64,000 nucleotides of DNA from Alphaproteobacteria bacterium (GTDB lineage Bacteria; Pseudomonadota; Alphaproteobacteria; Micavibrionales; UBA2020), in NCBI GenBank assembly GCA_016794125.1, contig JAEUKT010000003.1, forward strand, positions 248,001 to 312,000, written 5' to 3'. A program made the translations under genes and the position numbers. The first letter of the stretch is position 1. Every line of letters starts with the position of its first letter. Shown here piece after piece: positions 15,947 to 25,474 of this stretch. The notes under the pieces were generated by a model that saw nothing but the letters and a program-made list of their open reading frames with translations, was not told where the DNA came from and did not search any database.

Positions 15947-16987
15947 TTAGACGACCTCGTTGGGTGCCAGCATGCAATCGTCTTTGGCGTTGCCCGCCTC
16001 GACCTGAATCGTCACATGGCCGATCTGGAAACGCTCGCGCAGGTCACGGGCGACTTTATGGAGAAATACGTCGTCCAACGCCGCGCCGGGACGCATCAAA
16101 TGGACTGTCAGTGCCACCTCGGTCGTGCTCATCGCCCAGATATGCAGGTCATGAACACCGGTCACGCCCGGCAGTTCGTGCAGGTAAACAAGAACGCCCC
16201 GACGGTTAATGTGCTTCGGCACGCCGTCCAGCGACAAATGCAGCGCTTCCTTCGCCAGATCCCAGCAACCGATCAGGATGATGACCGAAACGATCAGGCT
16301 TATGGCGGGATCGATCCAGATCCAGCCTTTGAACATGATGATCAGGCCGGCCAGAACGACACCCGCAGAAATCGCGGCATCCGCAATCATGTGCATGAAT
16401 GCCGCGCGCAGGTTCAGGTCGTCTTTCTGGCCCTTCCAGAACAGCATGGCGGTGCCGAAGTTGATGGCGATGCCGAGACCCGCCACCCAGATCATCGTCG
16501 GCGCATTCAGCGGCGCGGGCGATGCGAAACGCTGCAAAGCCTCGATAATAATAGCGCCAATCGCCAAGAACAGCGTGCAGGCATTCGCAAGCGCCGCAAG
16601 GATGGACGCGCGGCGATAACCGAATGTGCGTTCATCTGTCGGTGCGCGGCGGGCAAGCCATGCCGCGCCCCAGGCCAGCAGCAGGCCGACGACATCGGCG
16701 AAATTGTGGACGGCATCGGCAATCAGCGCGAGCGATTTGGCCAGATAGCCATAGGTCAGCTCCGCCCCCACAAAGGACAGGTTCAGGAACGCGCCAATCG
16801 CAAAGGCACGGTCGAAATTCTTGGGAACGTGATGGTGATGACCGCCGATGCCGTGGCTGTGCCCTGCATGACCGTGACCGGCATGATCATGCTTGTGGTC
16901 GTGTTTGTGATCATGCGCATGATGATGCCCGCCACCACCGCCGTGGTTACAGTCTTCGCCATGTTTATGATCGTGGCCCTGATGCAT
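15947..16987 (-). CDS. Cation diffusion facilitator, His-rich N terminus (zinc-type)
   Basis: Inner-membrane metal/proton antiporter that exports divalent metal, 346 residues. Residues 1-53 are a His/Asp/Gly-rich metal-binding segment with about 20 histidines. Six membrane helices follow from residue 60. The second helix has DAVHNFAD and the fifth HMIADAAIS, an HxxxD/HxxxD site that in this family goes with Zn/Cd selectivity rather than the DD/HD site of iron exporter FieF. A cytoplasmic C-terminal ferredoxin-like domain follows (RGVLVYLHELPGVTGVHDLHIW). A Fur-family box lies 43 bases upstream of the ATG. A general CzcD/ZitB/DmeF-like name is as far as I can go. Confidence 0.88.
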   Translation of the reverse strand: MHQGHDHKHGEDCNHGGGGGHHHAHDHKHDHKHDHAGHGHAGHSHGIGGHHHHVPKNFDRAFAIGAFLNLSFVGAELTYGYLAKSLALIADAVHNFADVVGLLLAWGAAWLARRAPTDERTFGYRRASILAALANACTLFLAIGAIIIEALQRFASPAPLNAPTMIWVAGLGIAINFGTAMLFWKGQKDDLNLRAAFMHMIADAAISAGVVLAGLIIMFKGWIWIDPAISLIVSVIILIGCWDLAKEALHLSLDGVPKHINRRGVLVYLHELPGVTGVHDLHIWAMSTTEVALTVHLMRPGAALDDVFLHKVARDLRERFQIGHVTIQVEAGNAKDDCMLAPNEVV

Positions 16988-17136: not shown

Positions 17137-18030
17137 TTATCTGCCGGGGGCACGCGCGGGCTGCGGTGCGGTTGTTTGCGCGCCGGGTTGAGCCACTTGC
17201 TGTGCCTGTGCTGCGGCCTGAACCTGGCGGGCGGCGGCAGCGTTGAAATCGGCCGCTTCCTGCGCGTTCAGTTTTTCCACATGCACGATCTGCGGGAAAG
17301 CCTGCAGCCAGTCAGCCACGCGCCAGCGGACGCCATAAGTCGTAATTCGGTAAAGGTCATTTGCACCCGGAGCAACCGGTGCCGTGACATCATCGGGATA
17401 AAATACCGGATTGCCGGTATGCGTCAGGCTCCACAAATCGTTGGGGATGCTGGTCTTGACCTTCCAGATCATCGGGGTTTCCGCGCCATTGTGGAAACGG
17501 TTGCCGGTGATGGTCCAGACGTTGTCGTTATCGGACGAGTTTTTGGTGTCGTTCAGGCGCACCACTTCGGTATGCAGCGTCGTGCCCATGCGGAAACCAT
17601 CAACGCCCATTTCCGCGACGTTGCGGGCGGGTACACCAATCATGCCGGGGATCATGGCGGAAAGCATAAATGCAGTCGCAAGGCGCATGCCAAGGCGCAT
17701 TTTGGGGCGCGTCACGCGACGCTCCCCTGTTTCTTTGTCTTTTTTGGTAGTCAGTTTTTGTTCAAGCCATTTGTAGGCACGAACCGGCCACAGCTTGTTC
17801 ACAAAATCCCAGGCGGCGATAGCAACCTGTTTCACCAGCGTGAATGCGCCCTTTGCCTCGTCTGCGGTCGCCTTGACTGCCTTGATGTTTTCGACGCCTT
17901 CCTTGACGTCCTTCAGCGTATTGCCGATCACCGAACCGGGCGCTTCACCCACCGGGCCGCTGCGGCCAACTGCGGCGCGTGCCCTGCGAATAATCTCGTC
18001 TGTCCTGTCGCTATCGTAACCGTCAGCCAT
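17137..18030 (-). CDS. Single-span membrane protein, possible DUF1523-like C-terminal domain
   Basis: No confident family. The start at 18030 (MADGYDSDRT) is backed by AAGGAA eight bases before the ATG; a GTG nine codons earlier lacks a site. The 297 residues run as follows: a soluble N-terminal helical region (1-105), one membrane helix about 114-133, a folded region about 145-265 containing TTLHTEVVRL and YRITTYGVRWRVADWLQAFP, and an Ala/Gln-rich tail. The last motif recalls the YG-W ... FPNA end of DUF1523 membrane proteins, a weak visual match. It is the last gene of the cluster, with its own terminator. It may anchor the cluster's products at the membrane (inference). Confidence 0.6.
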   Translation of the reverse strand: MADGYDSDRTDEIIRRARAAVGRSGPVGEAPGSVIGNTLKDVKEGVENIKAVKATADEAKGAFTLVKQVAIAAWDFVNKLWPVRAYKWLEQKLTTKKDKETGERRVTRPKMRLGMRLATAFMLSAMIPGMIGVPARNVAEMGVDGFRMGTTLHTEVVRLNDTKNSSDNDNVWTITGNRFHNGAETPMIWKVKTSIPNDLWSLTHTGNPVFYPDDVTAPVAPGANDLYRITTYGVRWRVADWLQAFPQIVHVEKLNAQEAADFNAAAARQVQAAAQAQQVAQPGAQTTAPQPARAPGR

Positions 18031-18137
18031 TCTGTGCCATTCCTTTTTTGTCTTCACCCGTTTTCGGGCTTTGTATCATATCCAAGTACCTCTACTTGTA
18101 CATGATATGTAAAATTAAATCAAGGGATTTCACCCTG

Positions 18138-18174
18138 AGGCGGCTTGTTACAAGTCATTGATAACAAACCGCCT
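18138..18174 (-). repeat. Intergenic hairpin after the ClpB-like gene, no U-tract
   Basis: Inverted repeat of 13 positions with one mismatch (AGGCGGCTTGTTA and TAACAAACCGCCT) around an 11-base loop. It lies 15 bases after the ClpB-like stop on the minus strand. No T-run follows, so it is more likely a processing or 3'-end-stabilising hairpin than a full terminator. Confidence 0.6.
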
Positions 18175-18188
18175 CTTGGCTAATTTCC

Positions 18189-20552
18189 TTACCCTTTCCT
18201 GAACGCTGCGGCAGCAGGTACGGTGATGCCGGTTTTGTTCTCGTTCGCGGGCGGAGCAGCCACCTTCGGCTCTTCCGATTCATGCACCACTTTGCTGGTG
18301 CGCGTATCGGGGTCGTAGGTCGCGTGCAGGTTGCCCGGACGGTCGGGGTTGGTCAGGATTTCCTTGGTCACGCCCGAGGTGATGTTCGCTTCGATGAATT
18401 TCTGCACCGAACGAGCGCCACCGCGCGGGATGTATTCCTTCTTGACCATTTCCTTCATGTGTTCGGCATCCATCGTCACCTTGATGCCTTTTTCGGCCAG
18501 CCAGCTGTTGATCTCCTTCAGGTTTTTGTCGGCGATCATGATCAGCTCGGGTTCGCCCAGGCGGTTGAAGCAGAAGATGCCCGTGAAGCGGTTCAGGAAT
18601 TCGGGGCGGTAGCCGGAGCCGCCGTTTTCCTTGTCCGGGTTCCACAGAACCGCCAGCGCGCGTTTCTTGGCTTCCTCGAAATCGATGGTTTCATCGAGGA
18701 AGTGTTCCGCGCCGATGTTAGACGTCATGATGTTGATCGAGTTGGCAAAAGATGCCGTCATGCCGCGACGGTCCGCCAGCTTGCCCTCGTCCAGAATCTG
18801 CAGGAAGAGGTCATAAACGTCCTTGTGGCCTTTCTCGATCTCGTCGAACACGTTCACCACATAAGGCTGGCGGCGCATGTTGTTGGTGAGCAAGCCGCCA
18901 TCCGCATAGCCTTCGTAGCCGGGAGGTGCGCCGATCAGCGTCGAGACCGAATGCTTCTCCTGGTATTCAGACATGTTGTAGGTCTTGAGCGAGCCTTCAT
19001 CACCGAACAGGGCTTCGGCCAAAGCCTTCGCCAATTCGGTTTTGCCGACGCCGGACGGGCCAAGGAAGAGGAACGAGCCGATGGGCTTGTTCGCCTTTTT
19101 CAGGCCGATACGACCACGCTGGACCGCTTCGGCAACCGCCTTGACGGGTTCTTTCTGGCCGAACACGCGCTTGCCGAGGGTAGCTTCGAGGTTCAGCAGC
19201 TTCGTGGTTTCGTCTTGGCCCAGACGCGCGACGGGAACGCCCGACAGGCGGCTGAATTCGGCAAGGACATGTTCCGGCTTCAGTTCAATCTTGGCATTGA
19301 TCTCGTCGGACAGCGCCTTGAACTGCGCCTTGTTATCGGCGACCAGACGCACCCAGGCGGCGCGCTGTTCGTTCAGCTCGTTCTCAGCCGTGCCCTTGAA
19401 GCCGCTTTTCGACAGCTTGAACTGCAGGCCGCGGGTTGCAGTTTCGCCTTCGGAGTCAACGCCCGCTTTCTCGTTCGTCTCCAGCTGCTTGCCGGCTTCG
19501 ATCTGCTTCAGGCGTTCTTCCTCGATCTTGCGGTCGATAGCGCGGATCTCCTCCTCGCCTTTGCGCTGGTCTTTATACAGCTTGCGCAGTTTCGACTGGC
19601 GGGCCTCCCACGATGCTTCGATATCGGCGATCTCACTTGCCGTTTCGTGCTTCATGGTCGACAATTCGTCGGCCGATTTACCGGCCAGTTCCGGCACGGG
19701 CTTGCCGCCCATGGCCGCATCGATCGCGGTCATCATGGCGTTCAGGCCGTCCAGTTCCATCGGGGCGGAATGTGCCTTGTGGCGCAGCGCGGTCAGTGCG
19801 CCTTCCAGCAGCATGAAGGTACGCTTCGGCTGGCCGGCTTCCAATTCGCGGATGACGTATTTGTTGGTCAGGTCGATCGCGGATTTCAGCGCTTCGTCGG
19901 AGATGGTCACTCCGTGATAATTCTGCAGGCCTTGCGCACCGCCCTTGACGATGTCCATCAGAACCGCACGTTCCGGTTCCTTGATTTCCTTCAGCGTGAA
20001 CTGGTCGCGCAGGTCGGCATGGGCCTTCAGGACTTCAGCCAGGTCGGTGTCGCGGGTCTCGAAAATCGCCTGCAGATCCGGGCTGCGCAGTTCGCGCATC
20101 AGCGAGTTGATCAGGTTGGTGTTGCCGTTGTTGCGCGCGCCGTCGATAAAGCCGCGCGAGTCTTCGATGACCAGCACCGTATCAGGGTCACGCTTCAGGG
20201 TCGCAAGGGTCTTCTGGAAGGCTTCGCTGATTTTAGTGCTATCGCCGAGCGCGAACAGCGCATCGGTGTCGAGCCAGTAGAAACGCTTGCCCACGATGTC
20301 AAAGGGCGTGTTGGTGTCTTCTTTGGAAGCCTGCAGGCCCATCACGATCGCCGAGACACCCACCCCCGGCATGCCGGTCAGGATCAGGTTGTTGGCGTCT
20401 TTGCGCATCAGGACGTTGGAGACTTCTTTCATTTCCTGGTCGCGACCGACCAGCTTGAATTCGGGATGCTTGGCGAGGTAGTCGGTGCCACGGATCAGGT
20501 AGTCGGAGCTGGGCCCCAGGTCGATGTTGGATTTCTTGGTTTCGTCAGCCAT
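18189..20552 (-). CDS. ClpB-like double AAA+ ATPase with degenerate first ATPase site and no N-domain
   Basis: A 787-residue Hsp100-type unfoldase relative. It starts directly at the first AAA+ domain (LVGRDQEM near residue 35), so the Clp N-domain is missing. The first Walker A reads GMPGVGVSA at 60-68, with the essential Lys-Thr replaced by Val-Ser, and the Walker B is altered to VLVIED. A ClpB-type coiled-coil region spans about 295-425. The second AAA+ domain is intact: GPSGVGKTELAK at 498-509, pore loop GYEGYADGG (Glu where most have Val), FDEIEKGHKDV, sensor TSNIG and arginine finger RPEFLNR. The C terminus adds about 45 disordered residues. Only the second ring should hydrolyse ATP (inference). 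It sits in the accessory cluster, not with dnaK or clpP. Confidence 0.85.
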   Translation of the reverse strand: MADETKKSNIDLGPSSDYLIRGTDYLAKHPEFKLVGRDQEMKEVSNVLMRKDANNLILTGMPGVGVSAIVMGLQASKEDTNTPFDIVGKRFYWLDTDALFALGDSTKISEAFQKTLATLKRDPDTVLVIEDSRGFIDGARNNGNTNLINSLMRELRSPDLQAIFETRDTDLAEVLKAHADLRDQFTLKEIKEPERAVLMDIVKGGAQGLQNYHGVTISDEALKSAIDLTNKYVIRELEAGQPKRTFMLLEGALTALRHKAHSAPMELDGLNAMMTAIDAAMGGKPVPELAGKSADELSTMKHETASEIADIEASWEARQSKLRKLYKDQRKGEEEIRAIDRKIEEERLKQIEAGKQLETNEKAGVDSEGETATRGLQFKLSKSGFKGTAENELNEQRAAWVRLVADNKAQFKALSDEINAKIELKPEHVLAEFSRLSGVPVARLGQDETTKLLNLEATLGKRVFGQKEPVKAVAEAVQRGRIGLKKANKPIGSFLFLGPSGVGKTELAKALAEALFGDEGSLKTYNMSEYQEKHSVSTLIGAPPGYEGYADGGLLTNNMRRQPYVVNVFDEIEKGHKDVYDLFLQILDEGKLADRRGMTASFANSINIMTSNIGAEHFLDETIDFEEAKKRALAVLWNPDKENGGSGYRPEFLNRFTGIFCFNRLGEPELIMIADKNLKEINSWLAEKGIKVTMDAEHMKEMVKKEYIPRGGARSVQKFIEANITSGVTKEILTNPDRPGNLHATYDPDTRTSKVVHESEEPKVAAPPANENKTGITVPAAAAFRKG

Positions 20553-20631
20553 TCTTCGTCTGTTCCTTTTGTTGATCCGGTTCCTCCCGGATCGGTTAAT
20601 CCTTGTGCGTAGTCAGTAGACCCCGTCGGTG

Positions 20632-20661
20632 CTGGGTGGGGACTTTAATGCCCCCACCCAG
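20632..20661 (-). repeat. Intergenic hairpin after the TelA-like gene
   Basis: Perfect 10-bp inverted repeat CTGGGTGGGG/CCCCACCCAG around a 10-base loop, 11 bases after the stop at 20672 on the minus strand. There is no T-run. A second smaller stem (GATCCGG/CCGGATC, about 20574-20592) encloses GGGAGGA ahead of the ClpB-like gene. Confidence 0.6.
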
Positions 20662-20671
20662 GCTGACGAAG

Positions 20672-22411
20672 TTACTGGTTGAACTGGGAGAAGTTTGCGC
20701 CGAGGCCCGACTTCTTGGGAGCGGCAGCTTTCTTCTCGACAGGTTTGTCGTCGTTGGAGGCCGCGACGGGAGCACCGCCCGCAACTTCCGCGTTGACAGC
20801 GTAAGCATCCTGAAGGTCCTTCTTGGTCTTCTTGATGCTGTCTTCGAGCGACGACAGGCCTTCCTTGATCTCCTTGACACCTTCGCGGGTAATCTCGGAG
20901 GACGTGCGGAGGACTTCGCCGTAGGCAGCCAGGTCATCGACAGCCTTGGCGAGGCCGGTCGCTGCGTCCTTGATGCCCATCGCCGTGCGGATCGACTCCT
21001 TCATGGCGACTGCGTTGGTCTTGTCGTTCATCGTATTGATCGACATCTTGGCAGCTTCCGAGCTTTCGTTCAGCGCCGCAGCGGAGACCGCCTGCAGAAC
21101 CGTAGAAAGCCTGTCGGCGACGCCGGCGATACCGGACGAGTGCAGTTCGCGGGTTTTCGCAACCTGGTCGCGGTTCGCATCTTTCATCTGCTTGATGCGG
21201 ATAGCTTGCGAGGTCAGGTCCTGATACGTTTTCATGGTATCGACCGTCGAGGCATCCAGCGAGGTGATGTATTCTTCCGCTGCCTGCTTCTTGTTCTCGC
21301 GCTGCATCTGCTCGATCGGGCTCTCGCCGCCGTCTTTCGGGGGCAGGAAGCCGTCGCGGATCGCCTGGTTTTTATCGGAAGCGTCTTTGGACGCCTCGGA
21401 GACGATCGCGTAGATGCTCTGCATGCCGTTGTTGACGTTGGAAAGACCTTCGATCTGGCCCGTCATCTGGTCAAGATGCACCACGACGTTGCCGACGCGG
21501 GTATCAGACTTGTTGACGAAGTCCTGAGCCGAAGCCACGAGGCCTTTCTGGCGGGCCTTGTGCTGTTCCGAGGTCAGGTCCAGCAGCTCGCGCAGCTTCG
21601 CTTTTTCCGCCGCGAATTCGGCATACTGGCTGTCGCGCGCGGTGTTGGGGTCTTTCAGCGTCTCGACCTGCTTGACGGTCGCTTCCACGTCGCCGCCGAG
21701 AGCGGTCAGTTCGCCCTCTTTCGCTGCGATTTCGCGGATCGCCTCGTCTTTCAGGCCGCCAAGGCCGAACCACTTGCGGTGCGAGCGGCTGTTTTTCAGG
21801 ACTGAAAGGTCGCCGTTCACGCCTTCACTGCGGCGCTGCAGGTCCTGCAGCTTCTGCTCGCTTTCGGCAAGCTTGCGCAGGCGCTCCTGTTCGGCCGCCT
21901 GGTCTTCCTTGATCTCGCGGAATACGCCAAGAACGGTCTCGCCGCCCTGAAGTCGTAGTTTATAGACAGCGTCGATGATCTCGGTCAGCGGGGTCATCTG
22001 CTTGTCGAATTCAAGGATGCCGCCGTTCAGTTCCTCGATGACGCCCTGAAGTTCGGAGAACGCGCCGGTATCGGTCAGCTTGATGATTTCCTGCGCGAGG
22101 CGCTTGCGTTCGTTCTGGAGGTATTCCTTGAACGTAACGAATTCCTTGAGGGTTTCCTGGCTCTTGGTCTTGTCGTCGGGATCAAAGGAAAGCGCCTTTG
22201 CGATCTCTTCCTTCTTCTGGATTGCGTCAAGGCGCTCGTTGAACACGATCTTGTAGAACGTATTCGTGTCGATATCAGAGTATTTTTCGTCAACGGTAGT
22301 TTTCTCGACAACGCTGGTCGTGGTGGTTGCCGCAGTCTTCTTCTTCGTCGCGCCCTGAACGTCCCCGATAATCTCCTGGGCCTTTTTCATTGCGGTTGAT
22401 GCTTCAGCCAT
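20672..22411 (-). CDS. Long helical coiled-coil protein with TelA-like C-terminal half
   Basis: 579 residues, almost all predicted helical and highly charged, with no signal peptide or membrane helix. The N-terminal 30 residues are Thr/Ala/Lys-rich. Residues about 30-330 hold long coiled coils broken by a short SRSHRKWFGLGG loop. Residues about 430-560 show the pattern of the toxic-anion-resistance (TelA) family: INTMNDKTNAV, like the INALNxTT segment, then a helical hairpin (VLRTSSEITREGVKEIKEGL). The C-terminal tail is Ala/Lys-rich. The TelA link is by eye and weak; a plain coiled-coil scaffold is the alternative. It lies 119 bases upstream of the ClpB-like gene and has a long leader of its own. 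Confidence 0.65.
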   Translation of the reverse strand: MAEASTAMKKAQEIIGDVQGATKKKTAATTTTSVVEKTTVDEKYSDIDTNTFYKIVFNERLDAIQKKEEIAKALSFDPDDKTKSQETLKEFVTFKEYLQNERKRLAQEIIKLTDTGAFSELQGVIEELNGGILEFDKQMTPLTEIIDAVYKLRLQGGETVLGVFREIKEDQAAEQERLRKLAESEQKLQDLQRRSEGVNGDLSVLKNSRSHRKWFGLGGLKDEAIREIAAKEGELTALGGDVEATVKQVETLKDPNTARDSQYAEFAAEKAKLRELLDLTSEQHKARQKGLVASAQDFVNKSDTRVGNVVVHLDQMTGQIEGLSNVNNGMQSIYAIVSEASKDASDKNQAIRDGFLPPKDGGESPIEQMQRENKKQAAEEYITSLDASTVDTMKTYQDLTSQAIRIKQMKDANRDQVAKTRELHSSGIAGVADRLSTVLQAVSAAALNESSEAAKMSINTMNDKTNAVAMKESIRTAMGIKDAATGLAKAVDDLAAYGEVLRTSSEITREGVKEIKEGLSSLEDSIKKTKKDLQDAYAVNAEVAGGAPVAASNDDKPVEKKAAAPKKSGLGANFSQFNQ

Positions 22412-22851
22412 TCGTCTTGTGCTCCTATGTTGTTTCTTCGTCAGTTGTTGTTTGTTGCTTCGTCAGTTTCTTCGTCGGTTCCGTAGGCTTTTGTCTGGTG
22501 TCCGGTTTGCTTCCTGTTTCTCTCCTCAGGCTTGTTACGGGCAAAGTTCGGGCATCACGCATTCATGCGTTTTCGTTTCGCTCCTTGGTTTGGTCGGTAA
22601 AAAAAGTCAAAGCAGTGGCGTTACGCGCTGAAGCGTTTCAGGGCGGGGCGCCGTTTTCGGTCAATTTAGAAGATGGTCAACCTCCGGGTGCAAACCATCC
22701 CCTTGCCGCCAGTTGCCTGGCTGCGCTTGCCTTGCGGGAAGCTGGGGGAATGGAGGGCAGGAATTGAAAATGCGTGGACGCTGTAAAGACCGGTCATCTC
22801 TCCGTTCTTCAGTCCTCGCTTCACCACCTGCGCACCTCACTTTGTTGCCTC

Positions 22852-22872
22852 GAGAAAAGAGTTACTTTTCTC
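22852..22872. repeat. Perfect inverted repeat in the leader
   Basis: GAGAAAAG and CTTTTCTC form an 8-bp stem with loop AGTTA. It lies 10 bases downstream of the candidate -10 on the minus strand, so it is near the transcript 5' end if that promoter is used. A 5'-end stability hairpin or a regulator site are both possible. Confidence 0.5.
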
Positions 22873-22881
22873 TTAATCAAA

Positions 22882-22909
22882 TCCTTACACGCGTAAGATA
22901 GGCTGTCAA
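22882..22909 (-). promoter_or_regulatory. Candidate sigma-70 promoter for the TelA-like gene
   Basis: On the minus strand a consensus TTGACA is followed, after 16 bases, by TAAGGA(T). The -35 is perfect, the -10 only fair. It is the best promoter in the gap and would separate the three downstream genes from the vWA-like gene as a transcription unit. Confidence 0.4.
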
Positions 22910-23069
22910 AGGGAGTTGGAATAATCATTTAATATCAATTAGTTAAAATATACTCAATTTGTGATTTTGCGTCCTATAGTACCGCAGCCAGATTCGAGAA
23001 AACGGGCATTGCCGTGAATATCCCAGCAATATCAATGTGGTCTTATAATACCGCATACACGAATCACTA

Positions 23070-23092
23070 CGGCGCGTTACAAGAACGCGCCG
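23070..23092 (-). repeat. Perfect hairpin after the vWA-like gene
   Basis: CGGCGCGTT and AACGCGCCG pair without mismatch around ACAAG, 23 bases past the vWA-like stop on the minus strand. No T-run follows in that direction. It probably marks or protects the 3' end of that transcript. Confidence 0.6.
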
Positions 23093-23114
23093 CAGGAATA
23101 AAAATCCGCAAAAA

Positions 23115-23939
23115 TCAGGGCGTGGGCTGCGCAGTCGGCGTGGGTGCGGGCGCAACCGGCGCAGGCTTCACAAACGGAGACGCGGCGATGCGTTCGCGCA
23201 GCACATTGTTGAACGTGCCCCACACTTCATCGGCCTTTGCAATGTTGTGGATGCGCGGGCGCTGCGCTTCGTCGGCGACATTCACTTTCGCGACGAGTTC
23301 GTTGATGTTGCCGTTATCCGCGCCGACATTGATGAAATCGAACGTCGCTTTGGGGTTGCCGCGCAGCGTGCCTTCGATCAGTTTCGCAGCGGCCTCGATG
23401 CTGTCGGTCGTGTTGCCGTCGCTGACGATCACGTAATGGCGGCTGCGGGTGTATTCCTTGTCCGGCGTATTGGCGATCATGATATCGCGCAGCGCAGGCA
23501 CAATTTCCTTGGCATTTGCCTCGGTTTTCGCGCGCGCCTTTTCCATGCGGTCATAGTCGCTGATATTGACGGATTTCGCGGCGCCTGCCTCGAAGGTCGA
23601 TGCGCTGACGGAAAGATCGTAATTACCCTGCGCGGCAAAGCGCAGCTTCGCGGCGGCATCGATCCCCTGCCCCACGATGCTGTCGAGGCCGTAGCCGGTG
23701 TCTTTCGACTTGCCGACCAGCACGCTCACATCGCGGTTGCCGACGGATTCCAGAACGCCCTGATGCGCGAATTTGGCGACGGTCTTGTCCTGCTCCTGGC
23801 GCATCTCCAGCAGTTCCTGCTTGAAGATGGCAGAGTTAAGGTGCGCAACGGCTGCCTTGGATTTTTCAGCCACTTCGGCAAATTCGGCGCGCAGCGCTTT
23901 CAGCTCGTCGGAAAATTTCTTGGGTTCGTCATTCGCCAT
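23115..23939 (-). CDS. vWA-like domain protein with incomplete MIDAS
   Basis: A 274-residue cytosolic protein: an N-terminal coiled coil (1-60), then an alpha/beta region of vWA type. The first strand reads RDVSVLVGKSKD (Asp70 and Ser72 in place for DxSxS, but the third position is Leu), and the later metal-site strand reads HYVIVSDGNTTD (about 169-179), the usual ISDG pattern. The Pro/Ala-rich C-terminal tail is disordered. vWA proteins of this kind often act as adaptors for AAA+ ATPases, which fits the ClpB-like gene downstream. It has a strong promoter with a palindrome at 23980-24008 and is divergent from an ankyrin gene. The domain call is by eye; metal binding is uncertain. Confidence 0.7.
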   Translation of the reverse strand: MANDEPKKFSDELKALRAEFAEVAEKSKAAVAHLNSAIFKQELLEMRQEQDKTVAKFAHQGVLESVGNRDVSVLVGKSKDTGYGLDSIVGQGIDAAAKLRFAAQGNYDLSVSASTFEAGAAKSVNISDYDRMEKARAKTEANAKEIVPALRDIMIANTPDKEYTRSRHYVIVSDGNTTDSIEAAAKLIEGTLRGNPKATFDFINVGADNGNINELVAKVNVADEAQRPRIHNIAKADEVWGTFNNVLRERIAASPFVKPAPVAPAPTPTAQPTP

Positions 23940-23979
23940 GGCGGAGAAATCCCTTCAAAAAAATGTAATTGGATGGTTT

Positions 23980-24008
23980 TTCATAGGCCTATGAGGTCCC
24001 TCTGTCAA
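23980..24008 (-). promoter_or_regulatory. Strong sigma-70 promoter of the vWA-like gene
   Basis: Minus-strand TTGACA (24008 to 24003), exactly 17 bases, then TATGAA (23985 to 23980). It lies about 40 bases upstream of the start codon at 23939, in the divergent space with the ankyrin gene. Confidence 0.75.
23981..23994. promoter_or_regulatory. Perfect palindrome over the -10: candidate operator
   Basis: TCATAGGCCTATGA is a 14-bp perfect palindrome that covers five of the six -10 bases and half of the spacer. That is a classic place for a repressor site. No second copy was noticed elsewhere in the window, and no obvious repressor gene is adjacent. Confidence 0.5.
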
Positions 24009-24097
24009 TCCTGCACACCTTATATACAGGCTTGACCCTCTTTTCTGGATTATGGTATTTCTAGTCCTCCGCTAAACCCTTGAATGACTGCGCGCAT

Positions 24098-25474
24098 ATG
24101 GCCCTGTTTCGTTCGGAAAAAGAATTCCTCACCGCTGCAGCCGCCGGCGATACCGAAACCGTGTCCGCCTACCTGGCGAAAAGCAAAAAATGGCTGAAGG
24201 CGGAGAATGACGAGGGCTATCGCGCCATCCACCTTGCCGCGCGCCATGGTCATACAGGCATCCTGACCCTGCTGCTCAAGGCGGGCGCCTCCTTGCAGGA
24301 TTATAACCAGCAAAACTGGGCGACGCCGCTGCTGGAGGCTGTCATTGGCGGGCATACCGGCCTCGTCAAATTCATGCTGGAAAAAGAAACCACACGCACC
24401 GTCAGCACCTCGCCCCATGGAGTGACACCGTTGCAGGCGGCGATCATCCACGAGCGTTACGACATCCTGCAAATGTTCATAGATACCAAGAAAGCCGACC
24501 TGACCGCCGGCGACCCGCCCGCGGTGTATTGCGCTGTAGCGAACAACAAAGCGGAGGCGCTATCCATCCTGCTTTCCGTCGGCGCAGATCCAAGCGTCGT
24601 ACGCACCCGTGAAGTGCCGGACCGTTCGGAAGAATATTTCGGTTACCGCTACAGCACCCGAACCAAAACAGTCCATGATAGCCCCCTTCAGGCAGCCGCC
24701 ACGCTGAACAGCGTCGAAATGATGAAGATGCTGCTGGATCACGGTGCGAGCAAAACGCCGGATGAACATCCGCTGCACAGCGTAGCCGCCCACGGCAATG
24801 TAGAGGCCGCAACGCTGCTGTTGCAGCATGGCGTTATCAAAATCGGCGACCGTAACACCGCCAGCCAGACCGCGCTGCATTACGCCGCGCAGAAAAACCA
24901 GCCGGAGATGGCGCGTTTCTTGCTGGCACAGGGCATCGACAAGAACATGCAGGACAAGGACAAGCGCACAGCACTTTCCTACGCCCAGCAATTCGCCATG
25001 AAGGAAATGATCGAGTTGCTGCAAGGCCCGCTGCCCAAGCGTGAACCGCTGCCCGTGAAGCCGGTCGAGGCACTGCCGCCTGCGACTGATGTCGAACAAA
25101 AACCCGTAGCTGCCGCCGTCGTTCCTGTCGCGCAGCCCATCGTCATCGCAACACCGCCCGGATCGGCGAACGATGCTGAAACATGGACGCTGGCGGGATC
25201 GCATAGCGTCGCGCATATCACCGTGATGCCCGCATTGAACAAGAAACTGACCGAACTGTTCAATTTTGAAAGCCGCGAGCGTGTGACGTTCTCCGAGAAC
25301 CTCGCCACCAAGGCCGAACTGATGGGGCCGCACCAGAATTTCGACACCATCAGCGACGATGCGCTGCTGAAGGCCTTCAGCGAATACAAACGCTTGGGCG
25401 GCAAGGCGGATGAAGACAAGGTTTTCAGGCATAACCTGACCAAAAACCAGTTGAAAAAACCAACAGGAATATAA
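24098..25474 (+). CDS. Ankyrin-repeat protein
   Basis: 458 residues without signal peptide. Ankyrin repeats fill about residues 10-320, with clear units such as GYRAIHLAARHGHTGILTLLLKAG, GVTPLQAAIIHERYDILQMFI and TALHYAAQKNQPEMARFLLAQG. A Pro/Val-rich linker and a C-terminal helical part (about 360-458) with no known match follow. The ATG at 24098 is preferred over a TTG six codons earlier. Four bases separate its stop from the iminopeptidase gene, so the two form an operon. Such proteins bind other proteins; whether the partner is internal, prey or host is not visible. Confidence 0.85.
   Translation: MALFRSEKEFLTAAAAGDTETVSAYLAKSKKWLKAENDEGYRAIHLAARHGHTGILTLLLKAGASLQDYNQQNWATPLLEAVIGGHTGLVKFMLEKETTRTVSTSPHGVTPLQAAIIHERYDILQMFIDTKKADLTAGDPPAVYCAVANNKAEALSILLSVGADPSVVRTREVPDRSEEYFGYRYSTRTKTVHDSPLQAAATLNSVEMMKMLLDHGASKTPDEHPLHSVAAHGNVEAATLLLQHGVIKIGDRNTASQTALHYAAQKNQPEMARFLLAQGIDKNMQDKDKRTALSYAQQFAMKEMIELLQGPLPKREPLPVKPVEALPPATDVEQKPVAAAVVPVAQPIVIATPPGSANDAETWTLAGSHSVAHITVMPALNKKLTELFNFESRERVTFSENLATKAELMGPHQNFDTISDDALLKAFSEYKRLGGKADEDKVFRHNLTKNQLKKPTGI

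Follow-up and report, generated by a model that had tools for sequence, protein, structure and literature searches.

Layout and predicted transcription of the locus

In the window, by which we mean the whole stretch of 64,000 nucleotides that was analysed, four consecutive ORFs on the minus strand encode proteins of 274, 579, 787 and 306 aa. No other gene lies between them, and our ORF calls agree on this point with a preliminary description of the locus. We refer to these genes, in the order of transcription, as vwa, hel, clpB-like and mem. They are flanked by nuoA, tRNA-Asp and a gene for a CDF-type transporter on one side, and by a divergent ankyrin gene on the other. The CDF-type gene (15947-16987, minus strand), which sits between tRNA-Asp and the cluster, is marked by its sequence as coding for a cation efflux protein whose N-terminus is very rich in His (HDHKHDHKHDHAGHGHAGHSHG). 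The features of the cluster are as follows.

23980-24008, minus strand: promoter-like site upstream of vwa (TTGACA-17-TATGAA), unflagged by a consensus scan
23115-23939, minus strand: vwa, 274 aa, a lineage-specific neighbour outside the conserved cassette
22882-22909, minus strand: promoter-like site of hel-clpB-mem (TTGACA-16-TAAGGA), a putative promoter
20672-22411, minus strand: hel, 579 aa, core gene of a three-gene cassette
18189-20552, minus strand: clpB-like, 787 aa, core gene
17137-18030, minus strand: mem, 297 aa, third core gene; the alternative GTG start at 18057 (17137-18057) gives 306 aa
17083-17115, minus strand: strong terminator-like hairpin after mem, a 13-pair stem followed by a T run

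The cluster had been described as starting from a strong promoter and ending at a terminator. The hairpin at 17115-17083 bears out the end. As for the start, a promoter-like site does precede vwa, but the consensus scan is silent there and a second such site precedes hel. The gap between vwa and hel spans 703 bases without a gene and has no match to an RNA element in Rfam. When this gap, in which the TTGACA-16-TAAGGA site is located, was aligned across the window's genus, TTTGAC was invariant in all six genomes, with TA-starting hexamers at the -10 distance. The length of the gap, together with the invariant TTTGAC, makes it likely that the locus comprises two transcription units, and on this sequence evidence hel, clpB-like and mem very probably have a promoter of their own. 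For mem itself, the ATG at 18030 (MADG..., matching relatives) is a more likely start than the GTG at 18057.

hel, clpB-like and mem are conserved as a cassette

We found hel in 25 of 142 genomes of the window's order (26 with a wider profile). Outside the order, a sample of 386 genomes from the class contained one strong match, and 397 genomes of the phylum contained none apart from the window's own. When 84,980 species were scanned for motifs, 33 hel loci emerged, a number that is a lower bound because the scan requires exact short motifs. These loci lie in Alphaproteobacteria (Micavibrio-like bacteria and others, as well as Mameliella of the Rhodobacteraceae), in Gammaproteobacteria (Motilimonas, Vibrio, Pokkaliibacter, Pseudohongiella and Halopseudomonas) and in Deltaproteobacteria/Desulfuromonadales, and hel relatives outside the genus are ~36-47% identical.

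Profile searches of the flanks revealed the order hel, clpB-like, mem, all in the same orientation, at every one of the 26 bacterial scan loci that no contig end truncates (this count leaves out the sister-genus locus L071, and some of the genomes overlap with those of the order search). Consistent with this arrangement, mem is present in 21 of the 142 genomes of the order, all 21 of which are hel-positive. hel occurs without mem in four genomes of a sister genus and in one genome where hel is truncated. In the sister genus an Ala/Gly-rich, Lys-tailed membrane protein of 69-78 aa follows clpB-like in place of mem (L030, L037 and L038), and is perhaps a minimal anchor. The truncated hel (L042:7595-9088) has no clpB beside it and has the appearance of a decaying copy. 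In one further genome, represented by L082 and L036, clpB-like is split into two ORFs (L036:5511-7843), reflecting either a broken gene or a sequencing error.

Clustering of the neighbours at about 40 loci uncovered no other family that recurs beside hel-clpB-mem, nor a conserved neighbour of the TerB, TerC or TerD type. Trees of hel and of clpB-like (quick trees with several long branches) give matching groups that cut across taxonomy, including a phage clade, a group of two Micavibrio-like genera with a deltaproteobacterium, a mixed alpha/gamma group, and a gamma/Desulfuromonadales group. That the two trees are concordant with each other and not with taxonomy, together with the lack of any other conserved neighbour, indicates that the cassette moves as a block. 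Judged by gene content and order, then, the conserved unit is hel, clpB-like and mem, and the four ORFs of the window are not one four-gene system. Of the earlier proposal that all four products make up a single system, the part concerning the AAA+, helical and membrane genes stands, in that these are found together in distant genomes; the part concerning vwa, which is lineage-specific, does not.

Jumbo phages carry the cassette

A tblastn search identified hel in the Agrobacterium jumbo phage Atu_ph07 (36.5% identity over 86%), and scans of IMG/VR added further hel-bearing contigs of 20 to 518 kb, those assigned to jumbo phages measuring 150-518 kb; a viral scan queried with the Motilimonas hel found no relative. 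Each of the five viral records that we tested encodes a Gp23-type capsid protein (E 1e-90 or better), indicating that these contigs are phages. On two phage contigs (L053 and L054) the order hel-clpB-mem is that of the bacteria, and in Atu_ph07 three small genes separate clpB from the downstream mem. The Atu_ph07 record annotates hel and mem as hypothetical proteins, and in the accompanying paper the motor appears simply as ClpB gp492, one of seven Clp-like proteins (PMC6102473).

Carriage by true jumbo phages, whose copies form one clade, and a patchy, horizontally moving distribution (25-26 of the 142 genomes of the order) would both be expected of a conflict system through which bacteria and jumbo phages block infection or superinfection at the envelope. 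There is also a parallel in Ter-type submembrane proteins, which have been discussed as phage-carried exclusion devices (PMC7824862). Several observations speak against a system of this kind, however. PADLOC 2.0 holds no family for the window's hel, mem or vwa, and clpB-like matches the AAA+ parts of candidates only. A search with three hel queries found no copy on a plasmid. When PADLOC and Pfam were applied to the neighbours of 18 non-Micavibrio loci (A10), most belonged to housekeeping families and the defence matches were isolated and mostly single members, which amounts to no defence-island signal. We therefore regard a conflict system as unlikely, although it is the foremost of the alternatives considered here. 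The single-member PADLOC matches that lie within a few genes of the cassette are to TerY, STK_OB and PP2C (the TerY-P set) and to AbiEi/AbiEii, and none recurs.

The clpB-like protein is an Hsp100 whose D1 module has lost its motor motifs

The clpB-like protein (787 aa) has the Hsp100 layout of a D1 module, a coiled linker and a D2 module. The Pfam families AAA_2 (E 3.6e-49) and ClpB_D2-small (E 2e-10) both match above their gathering scores, and these domains, along with intact D2 motor motifs, place the protein by sequence in the Hsp100 / Clp class I superfamily. It has no N-domain (Clp_N), as Pfam matches begin at residue 33 (AAA_16) and the ClpB profile is matched from position 175. Against that profile (TIGR03346) it scores 408.6 bits, or 404.1 in a search of its own genome, below the cut-off of 1232 that the true ClpB of the same genome exceeds with 1361 bits; against TIGR03345 (ClpV/TssH) it scores 368.5 bits (E 7.6e-110), again below the cut-off (884.95).

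Motifs were tabulated for 36 clpB-like members, with the organism's own ClpB and ClpA serving as intact controls. In D1, 34 of the 36 have Cys, Val, Leu, Met, Ile, Ala or Ser in place of the Walker A lysine. The D1 Walker B motif has lost the catalytic glutamate, its second acidic residue, and has D or N there after an E, D or N. Neither the pore loop (KYRG) nor the arginine-finger segment (ERRF) is retained in D1. By comparison, the Walker A and Walker B motifs of D2 and its arginine finger are kept in all 36 members. The D2 pore loop is GYEG in most members, as opposed to GYVG in ClpB, suggesting that pore-threading may be altered or lost. In the window the two Walker A positions are these.

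20352-20375, minus strand: D1 Walker A position, GMPGVGVS, with Lys replaced by Val (GEPGVGKT in the organism's own ClpB, GDPGVGKT in its ClpA)
19038-19061, minus strand: D2 Walker A, GPSGVGKT, intact

With its D1 motifs lost, the protein does not have the two competent AAA+ modules that characterise ClpB (TIGR03346). What it shares with ClpB/Hsp104 are the two-module plan, the coiled linker, the D2 Walker A and B motifs, the arginine finger and the D2-small domain; it differs in the missing N-domain, a D1 that is dead on four motifs, GYEG, the sub-cut-off score and its fixed operon partners. The profile scores and the loss of D1 motifs thus uphold the preliminary description of a degenerate, ClpB-like AAA+ protein. 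ClpV/TssH of type VI secretion, an Hsp100 that recycles a dedicated assembly, has an N-domain and acts on the sheath. Although clpB-like matches the profile of this family, its sub-cut-off score and the absence of a recurrent neighbour gene of any kind set the cassette apart.

An Hsp100 fold with an intact D2 could also belong to a general stress disaggregase, that is, a spare ClpB that rescues aggregates near the membrane with the aid of helpers, and the authors of the Atu_ph07 study suggested that ClpB and DnaJ help against infection stress (PMC6102473). We consider such a role improbable. The window's genome already encodes a full ClpB and a full ClpA, general disaggregation is disfavoured by the loss of the D1 motor, the pore loop and the N-domain, and the obligatory partners of the protein point to a dedicated client.

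mem is predicted to present an OB-fold domain in the periplasm

The mem protein is predicted to consist of a cytoplasmic helical arm, a single transmembrane (TM) segment and an extracytoplasmic OB-fold, with an N-in/C-out topology.

17626-17682, minus strand: predicted TM segment of mem (LATAFMLSAMIPGMIGVPA), with 10 K/R before and 3 after, in keeping with the positive-inside rule
17266-17586, minus strand: predicted periplasmic OB-fold of mem, residues 158-264 of the 306-aa ORF

In the AF2 model of mem (mean pLDDT 80), the OB-fold is closest to SSB proteins (VIA-align; best Z 8.5 over 88 residues at 2.9 A); on the strength of this model the likeness to SSB is one of shared fold and not of DNA binding. 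Most members of the family have four cysteines after the TM segment and none or one before it (alignment A9), a pattern that fits an oxidised periplasmic domain, and these cysteines have been lost in the window's genus. Independently, the best viral match in Foldseek is the Atu_ph07 protein (E 5.8e-12).

hel is a helical protein distinct from TelA in profile comparisons

The hel protein (579 aa) is modelled as all-helical, soluble and rod-like, with moderate confidence (AF2, mean pLDDT 73.8, pTM 0.52), and no TM segment is predicted in it. In the family alignment (A8, 41 rows) conservation is highest at residues 425-450 (SSGIAGVADRLSTVLQAVSAAALNES), and residues 427-446 within this stretch form a moderately hydrophobic patch. 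hel belongs to no Pfam, PHROGs or PADLOC family and passes no family cut-off: the sole NCBIfam match is to a coiled-coil entry and is sub-threshold, and a phage hel gave a single marginal match in PADLOC 2.0, to LmuB (E 0.003). Matches of hel, mem and vwa to PDB sequences were at chance level only.

The helical protein had been described as TelA-like, and the two do have in common that they are long, all-helical cytoplasmic proteins. At the level of fold a likeness to TelA may exist, weakly suggested by phage models labelled as tellurite resistance proteins, which occupy rows 31 and 43 of a Foldseek search of the hel model against BFVD (probability up to 1.00, E 0.03-0.06). The assignment nevertheless fails in profile comparisons. 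None of 20 hel proteins has a Pfam TelA match (PF05816), and hhalign comparison of two hel alignments with TelA proteins of the same order returned probabilities of 13% and 6%. TelA searches of hel-bearing genomes matched separate genes and never hel; in the window's genome these TelA-family genes, which are unrelated to hel, lie at G000:C1:389291-389977 and G000:C4:15707-16735 (PF05816, E ~1e-12 to 1e-13).

Comparison of the hel fold with the PDB gave generic helical matches with Z up to 12.4, values below about 13 being uninformative for helical bundles. Bundles of the ClyA/AhlB kind are among the best structural rows (Z 11-12), which, with the moderately hydrophobic patch, raises the idea that hel is a membrane-active helical bundle that the clpB-like protein loads or keeps soluble. 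Unrelated helical proteins score alike, however, and hel has no TM-grade segment, so that this is the least probable of the readings we weighed and one to which we assign very little credence.

vwa is a lineage-specific neighbour of the cassette

The vwa protein of the window has no match to the vWA family PF00092. Its relatives do, in 2 of 6 (best E 4.1e-4) and 2 of 11 (best E 1.5e-4) cases, so the earlier vWA assignment holds for the family and is weak for the window's copy. The DxSxS motif of the MIDAS site is absent, the corresponding residues being GKSKD in the window and GKSKD or NKSxxM in the genus, whereas distant paralogues have DGSGS or DHTGS at this position (DxSxS or DxTxS). Judged at the family level, vwa is a true but degenerate vWA protein.

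According to the preliminary description, the vWA protein would act as an adaptor for the AAA+ ring in a four-part, Ter-like system. Such pairings have precedent in MoxR-vWA pairs, known for example from jumbo phages (PMC7824862), and in each of the six genomes of the window's genus vwa is indeed the gene before hel. Elsewhere the association breaks down: in the sister genus vwa is unlinked and found on other contigs (with unrelated surroundings at the two loci inspected), and no other copy of the cassette, bacterial or phage, has it as a neighbour. A four-gene operon that includes vwa is accordingly rejected by the distribution of the genes across relatives. Further points against the adaptor reading are that hel is not TelA by profile, that the MIDAS site is degenerate and that vwa and hel-clpB-mem have separate promoter-like sites. 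The likeness to MoxR-vWA pairs is also confined to an AAA+ gene beside a vWA gene in the window's genus, for the AAA+ protein is an Hsp100 and not MoxR, and the vWA gene is not conserved with the cassette. We thus think it very improbable that vwa is the adaptor of a four-part system; it is at most an accessory of the cassette.

On its other side vwa adjoins a divergent gene for an ankyrin-repeat protein of 464 aa (24080-25474, plus strand). Two other genomes of the genus (L027 and L028) have ankyrin-family ORFs (443 aa) in the same divergent position beside vwa, suggesting that the ankyrin-vWA pair may be a separate unit.

A proposed membrane-tethered remodelling machine

We favour, as the probable explanation of these findings, that hel, clpB-like and mem, which are inherited and transferred together, encode a single machine in which an Hsp100 driven by D2 remodels its target while tethered to the membrane. 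As is usual in its family, the clpB-like protein would assemble into a double ring. ATP would be consumed by D2 only, leaving the D1 ring, on the evidence of its motifs, as a silent docking platform. mem would anchor the ring to the inner membrane by means of its cytoplasmic arm, which is helical and basic, and, given the predicted topology, would display the OB-fold in the periplasm as a sensor or binding domain. hel may be an elongated coiled-coil protein, possibly self-assembling, that serves either as a dedicated substrate stripped and recycled by the motor or as an adaptor that delivers substrates to it. Most likely, the machine would use ATP to remodel an assembly associated with the membrane when the envelope is challenged in some way. 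The window's genus would have gained vwa as a neighbour of this set, and the degenerate vWA protein may act as an accessory recruiter.

A more specific version of this proposal, which we put forward tentatively and at somewhat less than even chances, is that of a mobile bacterial and phage machine whose D1-silenced, tethered Hsp100 builds or strips a coiled-coil assembly of hel at the inner membrane when signalled by the periplasmic OB-fold sensor, for example in the control of the envelope during phage conflict. A role in phage conflict is possible because the cassette is mobile and phage-carried.

The nearest mechanical analogue of the tethered machine that we propose is eukaryotic Pex1/Pex6, a type II AAA+ protein with an inactive D1 and an active D2 that is tethered to the membrane by the single-TM anchor Pex15/Pex26 (PMC10518020). 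The parallel is one of mechanism and implies no kinship, as Pex1/Pex6 is a heterohexamer and not an Hsp100. If confirmed, the cassette would provide a prokaryotic counterpart of tethered motors with a dead D1 and an active D2, as well as a new functional gene set in jumbo phages, whose accessory genes largely lack explanation. Two of the three core proteins fall outside all Pfam and PHROGs families, and the third forms a separate branch of Hsp100 proteins in which D1 is dead throughout. In agreement with the statement in the preliminary description that no system with this set had been described, our search of open-licence literature found no description of a hel-clpB-mem operon. Knowledge of its function may yet show the cassette to be a system of a categorically new kind.

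Cultured hosts exist in Halopseudomonas, Motilimonas, Vibrio and Mameliella, making the cassette directly testable. In Motilimonas eburnea a second, diverged hel (539 aa, L069:4933-6549) lies ~1.4 kb upstream of a complete cassette.
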